DNA of 49,337 nucleotides from Vicinamibacteraceae bacterium. Its GTDB lineage: Bacteria > Planctomycetota > Phycisphaerae > Phycisphaerales > UBA5793. Of this stretch, positions 24,547-29,339 are shown one piece after another. The stretch lies in contig WYBR01000111.1 in the NCBI GenBank assembly GCA_011525805.1, positions 1 through 49,337 on the forward strand, written 5' to 3'. The notes below the pieces were generated by a model. The model was not told the DNA's origin. It made no database searches and saw only the letters and a program-made list of their open reading frames with translations. Made by a program: the position numbers and the translations under genes. Within the stretch, counting starts at the first letter, position 1. The number at the start of each line of letters is the position of its first letter.

Positions 24547-24677
24547 GGCGCGTCGCCTCCCGCTCTCTCATCATCGGCCCGATAACGGCCGGACCTGAAT
24601 GGCGACGGCCGGTTGTGGCGGTCCTGCGACCGCCTGCCGCTCGCTTTCAAGCCGCGATTCGGTGCGGCACAGCAGGC

Positions 24678-24683
24678 TATGCT
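24678..24683 (+). promoter_or_regulatory. -10-like TATGCT just upstream of the GT39-like gene
   Basis: TATGCT ends 8 nt before ATG 24692 with no ribosome site between them, consistent with a leaderless transcript. Confidence 0.35.
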
Positions 24684-24691
24684 GGTGCCGG

Positions 24692-26329
24692 ATGGAGGCA
24701 GCCGGACAACAACCCACGGGGCCCGTCGACATCATCGCGCCCGCCTTCCGCCGAGCCGCCATGCTCCTGGCGGCGCTGATGGTGCTGATCGTCCTTGCCG
24801 CCCGATTGACGGGCGCGAGCGACTTGCACGACCAGACTCAGGAGAAAACCAGCGCCTACACGACCGACCTCGTGCTGCACGCCGGGGACTGGCGGCGGTG
24901 GATCCTGCCGCTCGAGCAGGGAGCGCACCCCGCAACCAAGCCGCCGCTCTACAACTGGCTCGCCGCGCCGGGCGTCTGGCTGACCGAGGGACGATGGGAC
25001 TGGCCGCATCGGCTGCCGAGCCTCGCGGCCTTTGCGGCGGTGGCGGCGCTGCTCTGGACGCTCGGGCGGCGCCTCGACCCCGCCGGACTCACCGGGCCGC
25101 TGGCCGTCATCATCCTCTGCTCGAACTACGCGTGGTTCAAACTCAGCGCTTTGATCCGCCCGGACACGCTCCTTTCGCTGTGGCTCGTGCTCGGATGGGT
25201 CGGCGTAACCGTCGTGCTGAGCGGCGAGGCCGCGGGGCGTGCGGGTCGCCTCTGGCGCGGCGTGATCTGGTTGGTATGTGCGCTGGCGGTGCTCACGAAG
25301 GGGCCGGCGGCGCTGCTCATTCCCGTGTTCGCAGCCGTCCTCGCCGGGGTCGATGCGCCCAAGGGCGGTCGCGCTCGCCGGGCGATGCAGGGGCTGCGCG
25401 ACTGCGGTGCGCTCTGGGGTCTGCCGCTGGTCCTTGCCATCACGGCCGCGTGGCTCGCCCTCCTCTGGCGGATCGATCCGGGGCACCTCTATGAGACGCT
25501 CATACGCGAGGAGTTCGTGGAGCGGGCGCTGGGGACGGGCGAGGAGGGAGTCAAGGAGGGGCCGTGGGACTTCATCCGCACGGCGCTGAACATGCCGCTC
25601 TATTTCATCTCGCGGTTTCTGCCGTGGTCCGTGCTCTTCTTCGGCGTGCTGCTGGACCTTCGCGCGCCGCGCCGCAAAGAGCGGCGCGATCTCCCCGCCG
25701 CGGCCGCGCGCGCGGCCTTCGATCCGCGCTGGTGGATGACCAGCGCAGTCACGTGGACGGTGCTCGTCGTCGCGGCCTTCACGCTCGCGGCGGGCAAGCG
25801 CGCGGATTACATCGCCTCGGCGTACGTCCCCGCCGCGCTGGCGGTGGCGTGGGGCCTGGGGCATCTCGGCTGGGCGCTGGCGCGGCGACTCCCCGCCGCA
25901 GTCGCCGCCCTCGCCCTCCTGACTCTCGCCGGCCTGATCGTCCACGATCGAGTGAACGGGTACGCGGTGAAGTACCCGCTCTCCGAGTCGCTGCGGGACT
26001 TTGCCCGCGAGGTCCGGCCGATCATCGAGAAGCAGCCGCTGGCGCTGGAGTTCTATCGCACGGGCGCAGCGCCGCTTCAGGTCATGTTGCATCGTTCGCA
26101 GCCGGTGCTCTTGAACGTCGAGGACCTGGCGGCTCGCATGGAATCGCACGGCGAGGCGTGGCTGATCGCGAGCGATCGCTCCGCCGACGAAGCGCTGGCG
26201 GCGGCCGGCCGCCGCGGGTGGAGCGTCGAAGAGGTCGCGGCCTCGCAGGCGGTCAAGGGAAGCGCCGCCGCGCCGCCGTTGCAGATGCGCCTCTACCGCG
26301 TGATGACGGAGGCGCGGGAGGGAACCTGA
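24692..26329 (+). CDS. Integral membrane glycosyltransferase, GT39/ArnT-like
   Basis: 545 aa from ATG 24692 (an upstream in-frame start would add 31 residues without membrane character). The first loop carries the acidic DLHDQTQEKTSAYTTD followed by GAHPATKPPLYNWLAAPGVW, matching the DE and HxxKPP signature of lipid-linked-sugar transferases such as ArnT and PMT-type enzymes. About ten hydrophobic helices follow (for example LAVIILCSNYAWFKLSALIR, LVCALAVLTKGPAALLIPVF), and a soluble tail of ~120 residues. It transfers a sugar from a polyprenyl carrier to an acceptor outside the cytoplasm; donor and acceptor are unknown. Confidence 0.88.
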   Translation: MEAAGQQPTGPVDIIAPAFRRAAMLLAALMVLIVLAARLTGASDLHDQTQEKTSAYTTDLVLHAGDWRRWILPLEQGAHPATKPPLYNWLAAPGVWLTEGRWDWPHRLPSLAAFAAVAALLWTLGRRLDPAGLTGPLAVIILCSNYAWFKLSALIRPDTLLSLWLVLGWVGVTVVLSGEAAGRAGRLWRGVIWLVCALAVLTKGPAALLIPVFAAVLAGVDAPKGGRARRAMQGLRDCGALWGLPLVLAITAAWLALLWRIDPGHLYETLIREEFVERALGTGEEGVKEGPWDFIRTALNMPLYFISRFLPWSVLFFGVLLDLRAPRRKERRDLPAAAARAAFDPRWWMTSAVTWTVLVVAAFTLAAGKRADYIASAYVPAALAVAWGLGHLGWALARRLPAAVAALALLTLAGLIVHDRVNGYAVKYPLSESLRDFAREVRPIIEKQPLALEFYRTGAAPLQVMLHRSQPVLLNVEDLAARMESHGEAWLIASDRSADEALAAAGRRGWSVEEVAASQAVKGSAAAPPLQMRLYRVMTEAREGT

Positions 26330-26534: not shown

Positions 26535-27887
26535 GTGCGAACGATCGCGATCATCAACCAGAAGGGCGGGTGCGGGAAGACGACGACGGCGATCAACCTG
26601 AGCGCCGCGGCGGCGCGGCGCGGGCAGCGGGTGCTGCTCATCGACCTTGATCCGCAGGGGCATTGCGCTCTCGGGCTGTCCGTCCCCTCCGGCGCGATCG
26701 AGCGGCAGATCGGCGATGCCCTGCTGGCCGACCTCAACCGGCCCATCGACGTCAGCGAGATCACCTGGCAGGCGGGCGACAACCTCGACCTCATTCCCAG
26801 TTCCGTCCGGCTCGCCGCGCTCGAAGCGATCAGCGGCGGCCTCTCGCGCCTGCCAGACCGCGACCGGCGGCTGGATCAGTTGCTCCGCTGGGTCGCGGGG
26901 CGCTACGACCTGTGCATCCTCGACTGTCCGCCGCACATCGGCCTGCTGACCTTCAACGCCCTGCGGGCGGCGGGCGAGGTGATCGTCCCCGTCGAGACGA
27001 GTTACTTCGCCCTCCAAGGCGCCGAGAATCAGATTCGAACGATCGAGACCGTCGGCCGTCGCATCGGCCGCGCGCTCTCGGTCATTCTCCTTCCGACCAT
27101 GTTCGACGACGCCGTCCGCCTCTCGCAGGAAATCCTCGAGGAACTTCGGCGGCGGTACACCGAGATCGTCGCGCCGGTGACGATCCGGTACTGCTGCTCG
27201 CTGCGCGAGGCGGCGAGTTTCGGCCAGGCGATCTTCGAGTATGCACCCGAATCCTCCGGCCGGCGCGACTACGAAGCCCTCGCCCGATGGATCGAGTCCC
27301 GCCGACCGGCACCCGCGGCAGCACCGGGCTTCAGCGAGTCGGCGCACGAGGCGACCGCTCCGGCCGTAGAAACCTGCGTCGGTCCGATGTGGCCCCGGCC
27401 CGCGACCGAGCCCGGCAACCGAGCCGCGGAACTGGCGCAGCGGGCCCGCTACCTGCTCCAGCGCCGCCACGAGGCTCTCGCCGAGACGTGCGACTCGCCG
27501 GTTCATTCGGCGACGCCGGCCGCGCCTCTGCCCACGACCCTCGCCATCCCACCCCACGGTCCCGAAGAAGGCAGTATCGTGCAGTTCGGCCAGCGAGTGC
27601 GAGTCACCTACCGGTCGCCCGAAACGGCGCGGCAGGTCTTCATCGCCGGCGACTTCAACGCCTGGACGCCGCAGCAGACGCCGATGCGCTACAGCGAATC
27701 CCTCGGCGGGTTCGAGGCGTGGCTGACGCTGACGCCCGGGCGCTACCGCTACCGCCTCGTCGTCGATGGGCAATGGATCATCGATCCGGGCAACCCGCGC
27801 ACCGAGCCGAGCGATTCGGGCCAGTTGCACAGCCTGCTGAGCGTGTCCGCCGAGGCGAGCCTCCCACGCGCCGAGGCGGCCGGATGA
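26535..27887 (+). CDS. ParA/MinD-type ATPase fused to a CBM48/AMPK-beta-like domain
   Basis: 450 aa from GTG 26535 (GGAAGGG 9 nt upstream; TTG 26529 possible). Residues ~1-255 are a ParA ATPase: deviant Walker A INQKGGCGKTTTAINLS, RVLLIDLDPQGHCALGL, Walker B region LCILDCPPHIGLLTFNAL, VPVETSYFALQGAENQ. A variable Pro/Ala linker follows. The last ~95 residues are an E-set glycogen-binding-type domain: ARQVFIAGDFNAWTPQQTPM, EAWLTLTPGRYRYRLVVDG, QWIIDPGNPRTEP. ParA dimerises on DNA or surfaces to position cargo; CBM48 domains bind alpha-glucans or pack on enzymes. Together they suggest positioning of a polysaccharide-linked cargo (inference). No parB or parS-like site is seen. Upstream, GGTTACC and CGTTACC are repeated near the likely promoter. 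Confidence 0.88.
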   Translation: MRTIAIINQKGGCGKTTTAINLSAAAARRGQRVLLIDLDPQGHCALGLSVPSGAIERQIGDALLADLNRPIDVSEITWQAGDNLDLIPSSVRLAALEAISGGLSRLPDRDRRLDQLLRWVAGRYDLCILDCPPHIGLLTFNALRAAGEVIVPVETSYFALQGAENQIRTIETVGRRIGRALSVILLPTMFDDAVRLSQEILEELRRRYTEIVAPVTIRYCCSLREAASFGQAIFEYAPESSGRRDYEALARWIESRRPAPAAAPGFSESAHEATAPAVETCVGPMWPRPATEPGNRAAELAQRARYLLQRRHEALAETCDSPVHSATPAAPLPTTLAIPPHGPEEGSIVQFGQRVRVTYRSPETARQVFIAGDFNAWTPQQTPMRYSESLGGFEAWLTLTPGRYRYRLVVDGQWIIDPGNPRTEPSDSGQLHSLLSVSAEASLPRAEAAG

Positions 27888-27938: not shown

Positions 27939-29339
27939 ATGATCAAACCCAGCGCCCCCCTTCACCGATCCGAATTTGACGATCTCGCGGATCTGTTCCT
28001 GACCGACGACGGCGCGGCCGAGGTCGCCCACCGCCCCGCGGCGGCTTGTGCGCAAGGCGGCGGCGAGAGTTCAAACACCCAAGCACCGCGCATCGCGGCG
28101 CTGCTGGTGGTCAATCTGCCCGTTTTCTCCGGCCCATGGGTCGACCAGGCGGCGGCCCACCTTGCCTCGCAGCGCGGACCGACGGCCCTGCTACGCCGGC
28201 GCGAGGGGCAGATCAGCCTTGACCTCTTCGCCACTCGCGACGTCCAGCAGGCCGCCACTCGCGACGTCCAGCAGGCCGCCGCCCGGGCGACCGGCGCAGC
28301 GCCCGCCGATCTGGCCTCGATCGTCGAATGTTGTCGATCGGCCGTCGCGCAGTGGGTCGTGGAGATTCGGCCGGAGGACGCCGGCTCAGCCCCGGGGCCG
28401 GGCGCATGCGATGAACTCATCCTCATTTCCGGCGCCGACGAGGCGGCGGTGGTCGCCGCGTTCGGTCAGATCAAGCGACTCGACGCCGTGTGGCGATCAC
28501 GACCCATTGGACTCGTCGTGGCGGGAAGCGAGCAGGAAGCGGCACGGCGCGCGGCTGAGCGGATCGTTCAGGCGTGCCGGAACTCGCTCGAGCTCGACGT
28601 CGAACTACGGGGAATCGTGCCGCGGATGCAGCCGATCGCCTCGCGACCCGTGGCGCGCCTTGAAGAGCGCGGCGATCCGCTGACGGTGCTTGCCGGCGTC
28701 CTCTCGCAGCCGCGTGTTGAACCGGCGGACCGCCGCGCGCCCGCCGCGCAGAATGGACCCGAATCACACACCGCGCCTGCGGCGCCGCGCGTGGCGCTGC
28801 GGCCCAGGCCGGCGCCCGCGCCGCCGCTTCCCCCAGTGGCCGCGGCTCACACGCCCCATGAACAGATGCTCCGCCCCACGACGCCGAGCGGGAGAAGCGG
28901 GGAAGCAATGCGCGACGCGGACGTGTCGCGTCCGGCCCCGGCCGTCGGACCCGCCGCGCCGGCGCCGGCACGGACGCTCATTGATCTCGTGCCCGGCCTC
29001 AACGGCATGGACGTGCTCTGCCCTCGCGCCGAGGGTGTGGTGTTCGCCTTCGACTCGAACGGCCGGCTCCACGCGCTGGTCGAAGAAGACTCGGAATCGG
29101 CGCTGACCCGATTGCACGTCGCCTGCGACTGGGCGGGCGAGCACTACGCGCTGCTCTCCCGGCTCAATCCGTTCCTTGCCGCGCCCGGCGGAGCCCGCGG
29201 GTCGGAGGTCATTGCGCACCTCTTCACGAGCCGCGCGCGCGAGCGGCGGCACCTGGCCGACGGTTCCTGGCGCGTTCACATCCTTGTTCGTGATCCCGCC
29301 GACGCAGGCCGCATCGCGGCCCACGTCGAACTGAATTGA
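27939..29339 (+). CDS. Unknown partner protein of the ParA-CBM48 gene, possibly ParA-like without a P-loop
   Basis: 466 aa, 51 nt after the ParA fusion and likely in its operon. The N-terminal part, PRIAALLVVNLPVFSGPWVD, QAAAHLASQRGPTALLRR and EGQISLDLF, looks like a ParA/MinD-type fold without any Walker A motif; CDELILISGADEAAVVAAFG and SRPIGLVVAGSEQEAARRAA fit the later strands. A ~130-residue Pro/Ala-rich linker leads to a C-terminal domain (TLIDLVPGLNGMDVLCPRAE onward) I do not recognise. A perfect 24-nt tandem duplication (28230-28277) encodes ATRDVQQA twice. The ParA resemblance is tentative. Confidence 0.7.
   Translation: MIKPSAPLHRSEFDDLADLFLTDDGAAEVAHRPAAACAQGGGESSNTQAPRIAALLVVNLPVFSGPWVDQAAAHLASQRGPTALLRRREGQISLDLFATRDVQQAATRDVQQAAARATGAAPADLASIVECCRSAVAQWVVEIRPEDAGSAPGPGACDELILISGADEAAVVAAFGQIKRLDAVWRSRPIGLVVAGSEQEAARRAAERIVQACRNSLELDVELRGIVPRMQPIASRPVARLEERGDPLTVLAGVLSQPRVEPADRRAPAAQNGPESHTAPAAPRVALRPRPAPAPPLPPVAAAHTPHEQMLRPTTPSGRSGEAMRDADVSRPAPAVGPAAPAPARTLIDLVPGLNGMDVLCPRAEGVVFAFDSNGRLHALVEEDSESALTRLHVACDWAGEHYALLSRLNPFLAAPGGARGSEVIAHLFTSRARERRHLADGSWRVHILVRDPADAGRIAAHVELN
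28230..28277 (+). repeat. Perfect 24-nt tandem duplication in the ParA-partner gene
   Basis: GCCACTCGCGACGTCCAGCA followed by GGCC occurs twice head to tail (28230-28253, 28254-28277), adding eight residues without changing frame. Zero mismatches imply a recent event. Confidence 0.95.

Follow-up and report, generated by a model that had tools for sequence, protein, structure and literature searches.

What does a ParA ATPase do when a putative carbohydrate receptor is built into its own chain? This question is raised by a gene in the 49,337-nt stretch of DNA analyzed here (referred to as the window), which encodes a ParA ATPase followed by a C-terminal E-set domain of the AMPK-beta/CBM48 type. 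ParA/MinD ATPases are a main bacterial means of placing large cargos. Known links between these ATPases and their cargos are generally made via separate partner proteins, and the cargo of many orphan ParAs is unknown. A ParA with a built-in putative carbohydrate receptor, retained since the origin of its class, therefore points directly at a testable cargo.

The ParA-CBM48 fusion gene

The fusion gene is a single uninterrupted reading frame that starts at TTG 26529 or GTG 26535 and ends with the stop at 27887. The first-pass annotation had started the protein at GTG 26535, and the family consensus begins with the Met at this codon, which agrees with that choice. TTG 26529 is the alternative start, and residue numbers of the fusion protein are counted from it. 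The protein matches the Pfam families AAA_31 (residues 4–184, E 5e-45) and AMPK1_CBM (PF16561; residues 365–442, E 2e-12, 47.6 bits against a cut-off of 26.8). CBM_48 (PF02922) likewise passes its cut-off (24.3 against 22.4 bits). An AlphaFold model built from 104 homologues has a mean pLDDT of 85.6 and shows a ParA fold, a helix in the linker and a beta-sandwich of the E-set type. The pLDDT is mostly above 90 in the ParA domain and mostly above 85 in the E-set domain, and falls below 50 at residues 281–296 and 325–347, on either side of the helix. The helix is retained in some truncated proteins that have lost the E-set domain. The features of the fusion gene and its neighbor are listed in Table 1.

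Table 1. Features of the fusion gene and the partner gene in the window.
Feature	Coordinates	Strand	Description
ParA-CBM48 fusion gene	26535..27887	+	450 aa from GTG 26535; open ORF; Pfam AAA_31 and AMPK1_CBM; kept in 104 distinct sequences
Soj/ParA ATPase domain	26535..27308	+	Up to residue 260; NQKGGCGKTT, DLDPQ and DCPP motifs
Conserved linker helix	27420..27491	+	Residues 298–321, RAAELAQRARYLLQRR; AlphaFold helix; consensus RAAEL..RAR.L
E-set domain, AMPK-beta/CBM48 type	27579..27848	+	Residues 351–440; Pfam PF16561, PDB phmmer, conservation
Partner gene	27939..29339	+	466 aa; LADLFL N-terminal motif, degenerate FlhG/FleN-like MinD domain, disordered Pro/Ala linker, C-terminal domain
Pseudo-FlhG/MinD domain of partner	28074..28712	+	Residues ~46–258; VIA-align, profile against PDB
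C-terminal domain of partner	28989..29336	+	Last 116 aa; without known family

The description of this gene in the first-pass annotation, a ParA ATPase joined to a C-terminal CBM48-type E-set domain, was thus borne out, as a single intact protein carries both Pfam domains above their cut-offs. Two checks proposed there also came out in its favor: a CBM48/AMPK1_CBM fold is predicted for the tail, and the fusion is present in relatives. The probability that misassembly, a frameshift or a spurious match of the tail explains the fusion is negligible. The fusion is one open frame in about 100 independent genomes, forms a single clade and has a Pfam score far above the cut-off, and these artifacts were therefore ruled out.

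The ParA ATPase domain

All 104 relatives share the deviant Walker motif NQKGGCGKTT (KGGxGKT with the signature lysine) unchanged, and neither the DxD motif nor the Walker B aspartate varies across the fused ParAs. In VIA-align, whose listing for this protein spans residues 1–266 alone and says nothing on the E-set domain, the nearest solved structures are Soj/ParA proteins (9a6n, Z 37.5; 8ray, Z 37.0). The Soj/ParA structures score Z 35–37.5 with 34–40% identity and are followed by McdA, MinD, FlhG and BcsQ. The profile match to ParA 8ray has an E value of 5.5e-74. The domain also matches BcsQ models (PF06564, E 6e-12; TIGR03371, E 1.6e-23), with the NCBIfam BcsQ equivalog TIGR03371 scoring 83.5 bits against a cut-off of 157.85. 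Two positions align with the DNA-binding arginines of Soj. They are basic in approximately 56% and 68% of the family, and are Ala and Ser in the window protein, with other basic residues nearby. Since these positions are only partly basic, DNA binding by the fused ParA may be called plausible.

The E-set domain and its glucan-contact positions

CBM48 domains bind alpha-glucans, not beta-glucans. When the isolated tail was searched against the PDB with phmmer, the AMPK beta-2 and beta-1 glycogen-binding domains were retrieved (E 7.5e-11 to 1.8e-8). Residues W379, R409, W416 and H434 of the window protein occupy the positions of AMPK W100, K126, W133 and N150; we presume that K126 and N150, too, contact the glucan. 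The W100 position holds Trp in 102 of the 104 fused proteins and the W133 position in 93, the K126 position is Arg or Lys in 99, and the N150 position is Asn in 86 and His in the window's own genus. By conservation, the W100, K126, W133 and N150 positions rank 6, 9, 15 and 17 among 87 E-set columns. In plant PTST, which puts a starch synthase on granules, the tryptophans equivalent to W100 and W133 are required for starch binding (PMC4339375). PTST is thus a precedent for a non-enzymatic CBM48 protein with a targeting function. The host genome contains one other AMPK1_CBM match (E 2e-8), in a stand-alone 185-aa protein on contig C6 (L002:1282-1836, minus strand).

Distribution, origin and loss of the E-set domain

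The 104 distinct fused sequences come from Phycisphaerales, Sedimentisphaerales and allied planctomycetes, and ParA matches were found in all 101 close relatives. Across 294 genomes of the phylum, a profile search scored more than 300 bits in 21 of 22 Phycisphaerae. No other genome reached this score, so that the fusion was not found in any of approximately 270 genomes from the remaining planctomycete classes. The scores drop from 372 to 285 bits, and below this gap other ParAs are matched essentially over the ATPase alone. In the tree of the ParA core, the fused proteins form one clade (support 96) against the unfused ParAs of the same and other classes, and every deep branch of this clade has the E-set domain. 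Collectively, the single clade, the E-set domain in all deep branches and the class-limited matches suggest, as the simplest reading, a single fusion event at the root of Phycisphaerae with vertical inheritance thereafter. A fusion of the Phycisphaerae type is also present on a 4 kb contig labelled Limnohabitans (L093). Its fusion falls inside the planctomycete tree, and the contig is probably mis-binned.

The E-set domain has been cleanly lost in genomes G012, G017, G024, G036 and G039 and eroded in G007, G010, G020, G028 and G040, all of which keep the ParA. These losses and erosions require about five changes on the tree, many of them within one family. In G020, the glucan-contact residues are eroded to W/Q/P/A, and this genome has GH13 matches and no GT35, GH57 or GT5 matches. 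Since the E-set domain was lost while the ParA, and usually the partner described below, stayed, glucan binding is not needed for the function of the ParA core. These comparisons thus indicate that the core has a tail-independent function and that the glucan-binding part is accessory.

A partner gene related to FlhG

A second gene lies downstream of the fusion gene (Table 1). It was newly noticed in this analysis and matters for any mechanism. A profile search identified 81 distinct partners adjoining the fusion. All of them share its strand, they generally follow it immediately, and 13 overlap the fusion gene by 4 bp. A group of Sedimentisphaerales-like loci lacks the partner, and several families of Phycisphaerae gave no strong match to it; it is conserved in most of the class.

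The product of the partner gene in the window has no match in Pfam or NCBIfam. Its N-terminal domain matches FlhG/FleN in Foldseek (E 3.5e-7), and the profile of the family retrieves FlhG from the PDB (E 4.6e-7). In VIA-align, which covers residues 47–236 alone and says nothing on the C-terminal domain, it aligns with FlhG 4rz3 (Z 11.2, rmsd 3.7, 162 aligned residues) and with FleN (Z 9.5–10.1). A Walker A-like motif is missing in 80 of the 81 partners, and the one found is of a type other than KGG. With this motif lost, the partner probably cannot bind ATP as such ATPases normally do. In 56 of the 81 partners, the N-terminal part carries a short motif whose commonest form is LADLFL. For the C-terminal domain, 28 aligned members gave no convincing sequence match in Pfam or the PDB.

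A separate canonical FlhG is encoded in the host genome beside FlhF and flagellar export genes. These names were given by recognizing the sequences by eye and, for FlhG, also by a profile match. A flagellar role for the partner was rejected in view of this separate FlhF-FlhG operon.

A profile search found the partner in G012, G024, G036 and G039, all of which are without the E-set domain. As the partner stays where the E-set domain has been lost, it goes with the ParA core. A joint loss of the E-set domain and the partner was also considered and dropped: a single-sequence search had given four genomes without the partner, and the profile found it in two of them. After this correction, the association has a p value of 0.055.

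Genomic neighborhood

The conserved neighbors of the fusion gene are the partner and aroB; an alpha-glucan gene was never a conserved neighbor in the loci compared. ParB was not found among the neighbors scanned with Pfam, and the window has no match to canonical parS with up to three mismatches. The first-pass annotation had likewise reported neither ParB nor parS at this locus. Plasmid partition was rejected, as 80% coverage of the query was reached by none of the best 5000 PLSDB matches.

A PMT-type glycosyltransferase is encoded directly upstream of the fusion gene (24599-26329, plus strand), and such a gene also lies upstream in five other loci. Two loci (L079 and L092) carry directly upstream a gene for a protein of approximately 610 aa that is DUF115/Maf-like by eye. 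Several Phycisphaerales (L169, L170, L171 and L179) have a second, unfused ParA, considered here as a possible chromosomal ParA, near recO-like and vanZ/murJ-like genes, and no ParB was recognized by motif near it. In another family of the class (G237), an unfused ParA (L174:4594-5448, minus strand) lies among genes that by eye are PilM/N/O/Q-like type IV pilus genes.

Alpha-glucan metabolism of the host

The host genome (G000; 4.5 Mb, 97% complete) contains no GH13 domain and no GlgB. GH13 is likewise missing from G002–G004, of the same genus, and G001 has two GH13 matches. The GlgA cut-off was reached by none of 101 class members, the host included, so the classical glycogen pathway, defined by GH13, GlgA and GlgB, was not detected in the host. 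The host encodes an alpha-glucan phosphorylase (TIGR02094, 847 bits), a GH57 enzyme and a 503-aa GT4/GT5-like transferase whose best NCBIfam match is the glycogen synthase glgA_Coryne, below the cut-off. An alternative, GH13-free alpha-glucan pathway is therefore plausible from the gene content. Since the classical enzymes are missing but this alternative set is present, positioning of glucan granules is possible in the host. A link between E-set integrity and the alpha-glucan phosphorylase was tried and rejected, because its Fisher p value of 0.008 overall becomes 1.0 without one family and thus reflects one lineage.

Possible functions of the two-gene module

Tentatively, and with less than even confidence, we favor the reading that the two genes form a module for positioning alpha-glucan, consisting of a ParA, its putative glucan tether and a pseudo-ATPase partner. 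This module for spatial organization would be ancestral to the class Phycisphaerae. By analogy with other ParA/MinD systems, the ATP-bound dimer of the fused ParA would bind the nucleoid, and the E-set domain would tether the ATPase to intracellular alpha-glucan, either a polymer resembling glycogen or an enzyme complex bound to glucan. The partner may regulate the ATPase or serve as an adaptor, perhaps as a pseudo-ATPase that pairs with ParA or by binding through its N-terminal motif. The glucan polymer would thereby be distributed over the length of the nucleoid and split between the daughter cells. This reading is favored by the single origin and class-wide inheritance, the invariant Walker motifs, the kept glucan-contact residues, the PTST precedent, the phosphorylase, GH57 enzyme and GlgA-like transferase of the host, the erosion in G020 and the tight linkage of the partner. 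It is opposed by the missing GH13, GlgA and GlgB, the E-set losses in which ParA was kept, the lack of independent tracking with the phosphorylase, the His at the N150 position in the window's own genus, the only partly basic Soj arginine positions and the absence of an alpha-glucan neighbor.

E-set domains are often protein-interaction or scaffolding domains, and the tail may be one of these, with the partner choosing a protein complex as cargo and the tryptophans being structural or binding a peptide or another sugar. The persistence of the ParA core and partner in the four genomes without the E-set domain, the host without a classical glycogen pathway and the lack of a conserved glycogen-gene neighbor are consistent with such a scaffold. 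However, both tryptophans and the Arg/Lys align with the AMPK glucan contacts and belong to the best-conserved E-set columns, and a domain that does not bind glucan would not be expected to retain this set of residues. We consider a scaffold somewhat unlikely. That an accessory domain can be lost without the core, as observed, would also be expected if the glucan were a signal instead of a cargo, its binding to the E-set domain switching ParA and so coupling the carbon reserve to chromosome organization or division. A sensor role, by which AMPK would detect glycogen, has been proposed for the AMPK glycogen-binding domain, that of the beta subunit (McBride 2009, reference 38 of PMC4339375). The ParA domain is nearest to chromosomal Soj, which would suit such a switch, whereas the lack of a ParB neighbor and of a canonical parS in the window speaks against it, and we regard a glucan signal as unlikely.

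The relation of the partner to FlhG/FleN, the matches of the ParA to BcsQ models and the PMT-type glycosyltransferase upstream in the window and five other loci would instead suit a module that places a machine for making or exporting a surface glycan or an appendage that is glycosylated, in the manner of BcsQ for cellulose and FlhG for flagella. Yet the true FlhG is encoded elsewhere with the flagellar genes, bcs genes are not conserved beside the fusion, the Soj fold is much closer than that of BcsQ (Z 37 against 27), and the glucans bound by CBM48 domains are of the alpha and not the beta type. We therefore hold a surface-glycan machine to be quite improbable.

No published description of a ParA-CBM48 fusion was found among the open-access papers searched. 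The first-pass annotation had suggested positioning or counting of polysaccharide granules or a glycan-linked complex, for which its author knew of no described system. Each domain is known; these papers gave no account of the pairing, its fixation across the class or the pseudo-FlhG partner. It is rather doubtful, though conceivable, that this is the first ParA-driven system for positioning, partitioning or counting intracellular alpha-glucan particles, with the receptor within the ATPase, a pseudo-FlhG regulator and a class-wide distribution. If glucan is bound, bacteria would actively distribute or sense their storage polymer, for which no described system was found. The partner family also presents a case of a MinD/FlhG ATPase turned into a pseudo-enzyme.

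Comparison with known systems

The most economical reading of the locus is a ParA with its own glucan tether and a pseudo-ATPase partner that may act as regulator or adaptor, and its parts resemble several known systems. The fused ParA shares the fold, deviant Walker A, DxD and Walker B with Thermus thermophilus Soj (2bek/1wcv) and ParA 8ray, with approximately 38–40% identity over about 245–250 residues. It differs from them in its C-terminal putative glucan-binding domain, its locus without ParB/parS and partly other residues at the Soj DNA-binding positions. BcsQ, which acts with BcsE/BcsR in cellulose secretion, is likewise a MinD-type ATPase tied to a polysaccharide system, but the fusion locus has no bcs genes and its ParA core is nearer to Soj.

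The tail belongs to the same domain family as the AMPK beta glycogen-binding domain/CBM48 and has the same binding tryptophans, but is joined to a ParA ATPase, whereas the AMPK beta domain belongs to a kinase complex. Plant PTST, with a CBM48 and a coiled coil, also is a non-enzymatic CBM48 protein, and it targets another protein to starch granules (PMC4339375); unlike the fusion, it has no ATPase and acts in a eukaryotic plastid, so that CBM48 is the sole domain in common. FlhG/FleN share with the partner the fold and the detectable sequence relation given above (Z 11.2; E 4.6e-7), and the partner differs in its lost Walker A, its extra N- and C-terminal parts and its position outside the flagellar operon. 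The partner proteins through which ParA systems link a nucleoid-bound ATPase to its cargo are very diverse (PMC10241942). In carboxysome positioning by McdA/McdB and in other ParA/MinD systems with a cargo, an orphan ParA lies beside a lineage-specific partner, as it does here. Unlike these systems, the Phycisphaerae module has its putative cargo-binding domain within the ATPase itself, and its partner resembles an inactive MinD/FlhG.
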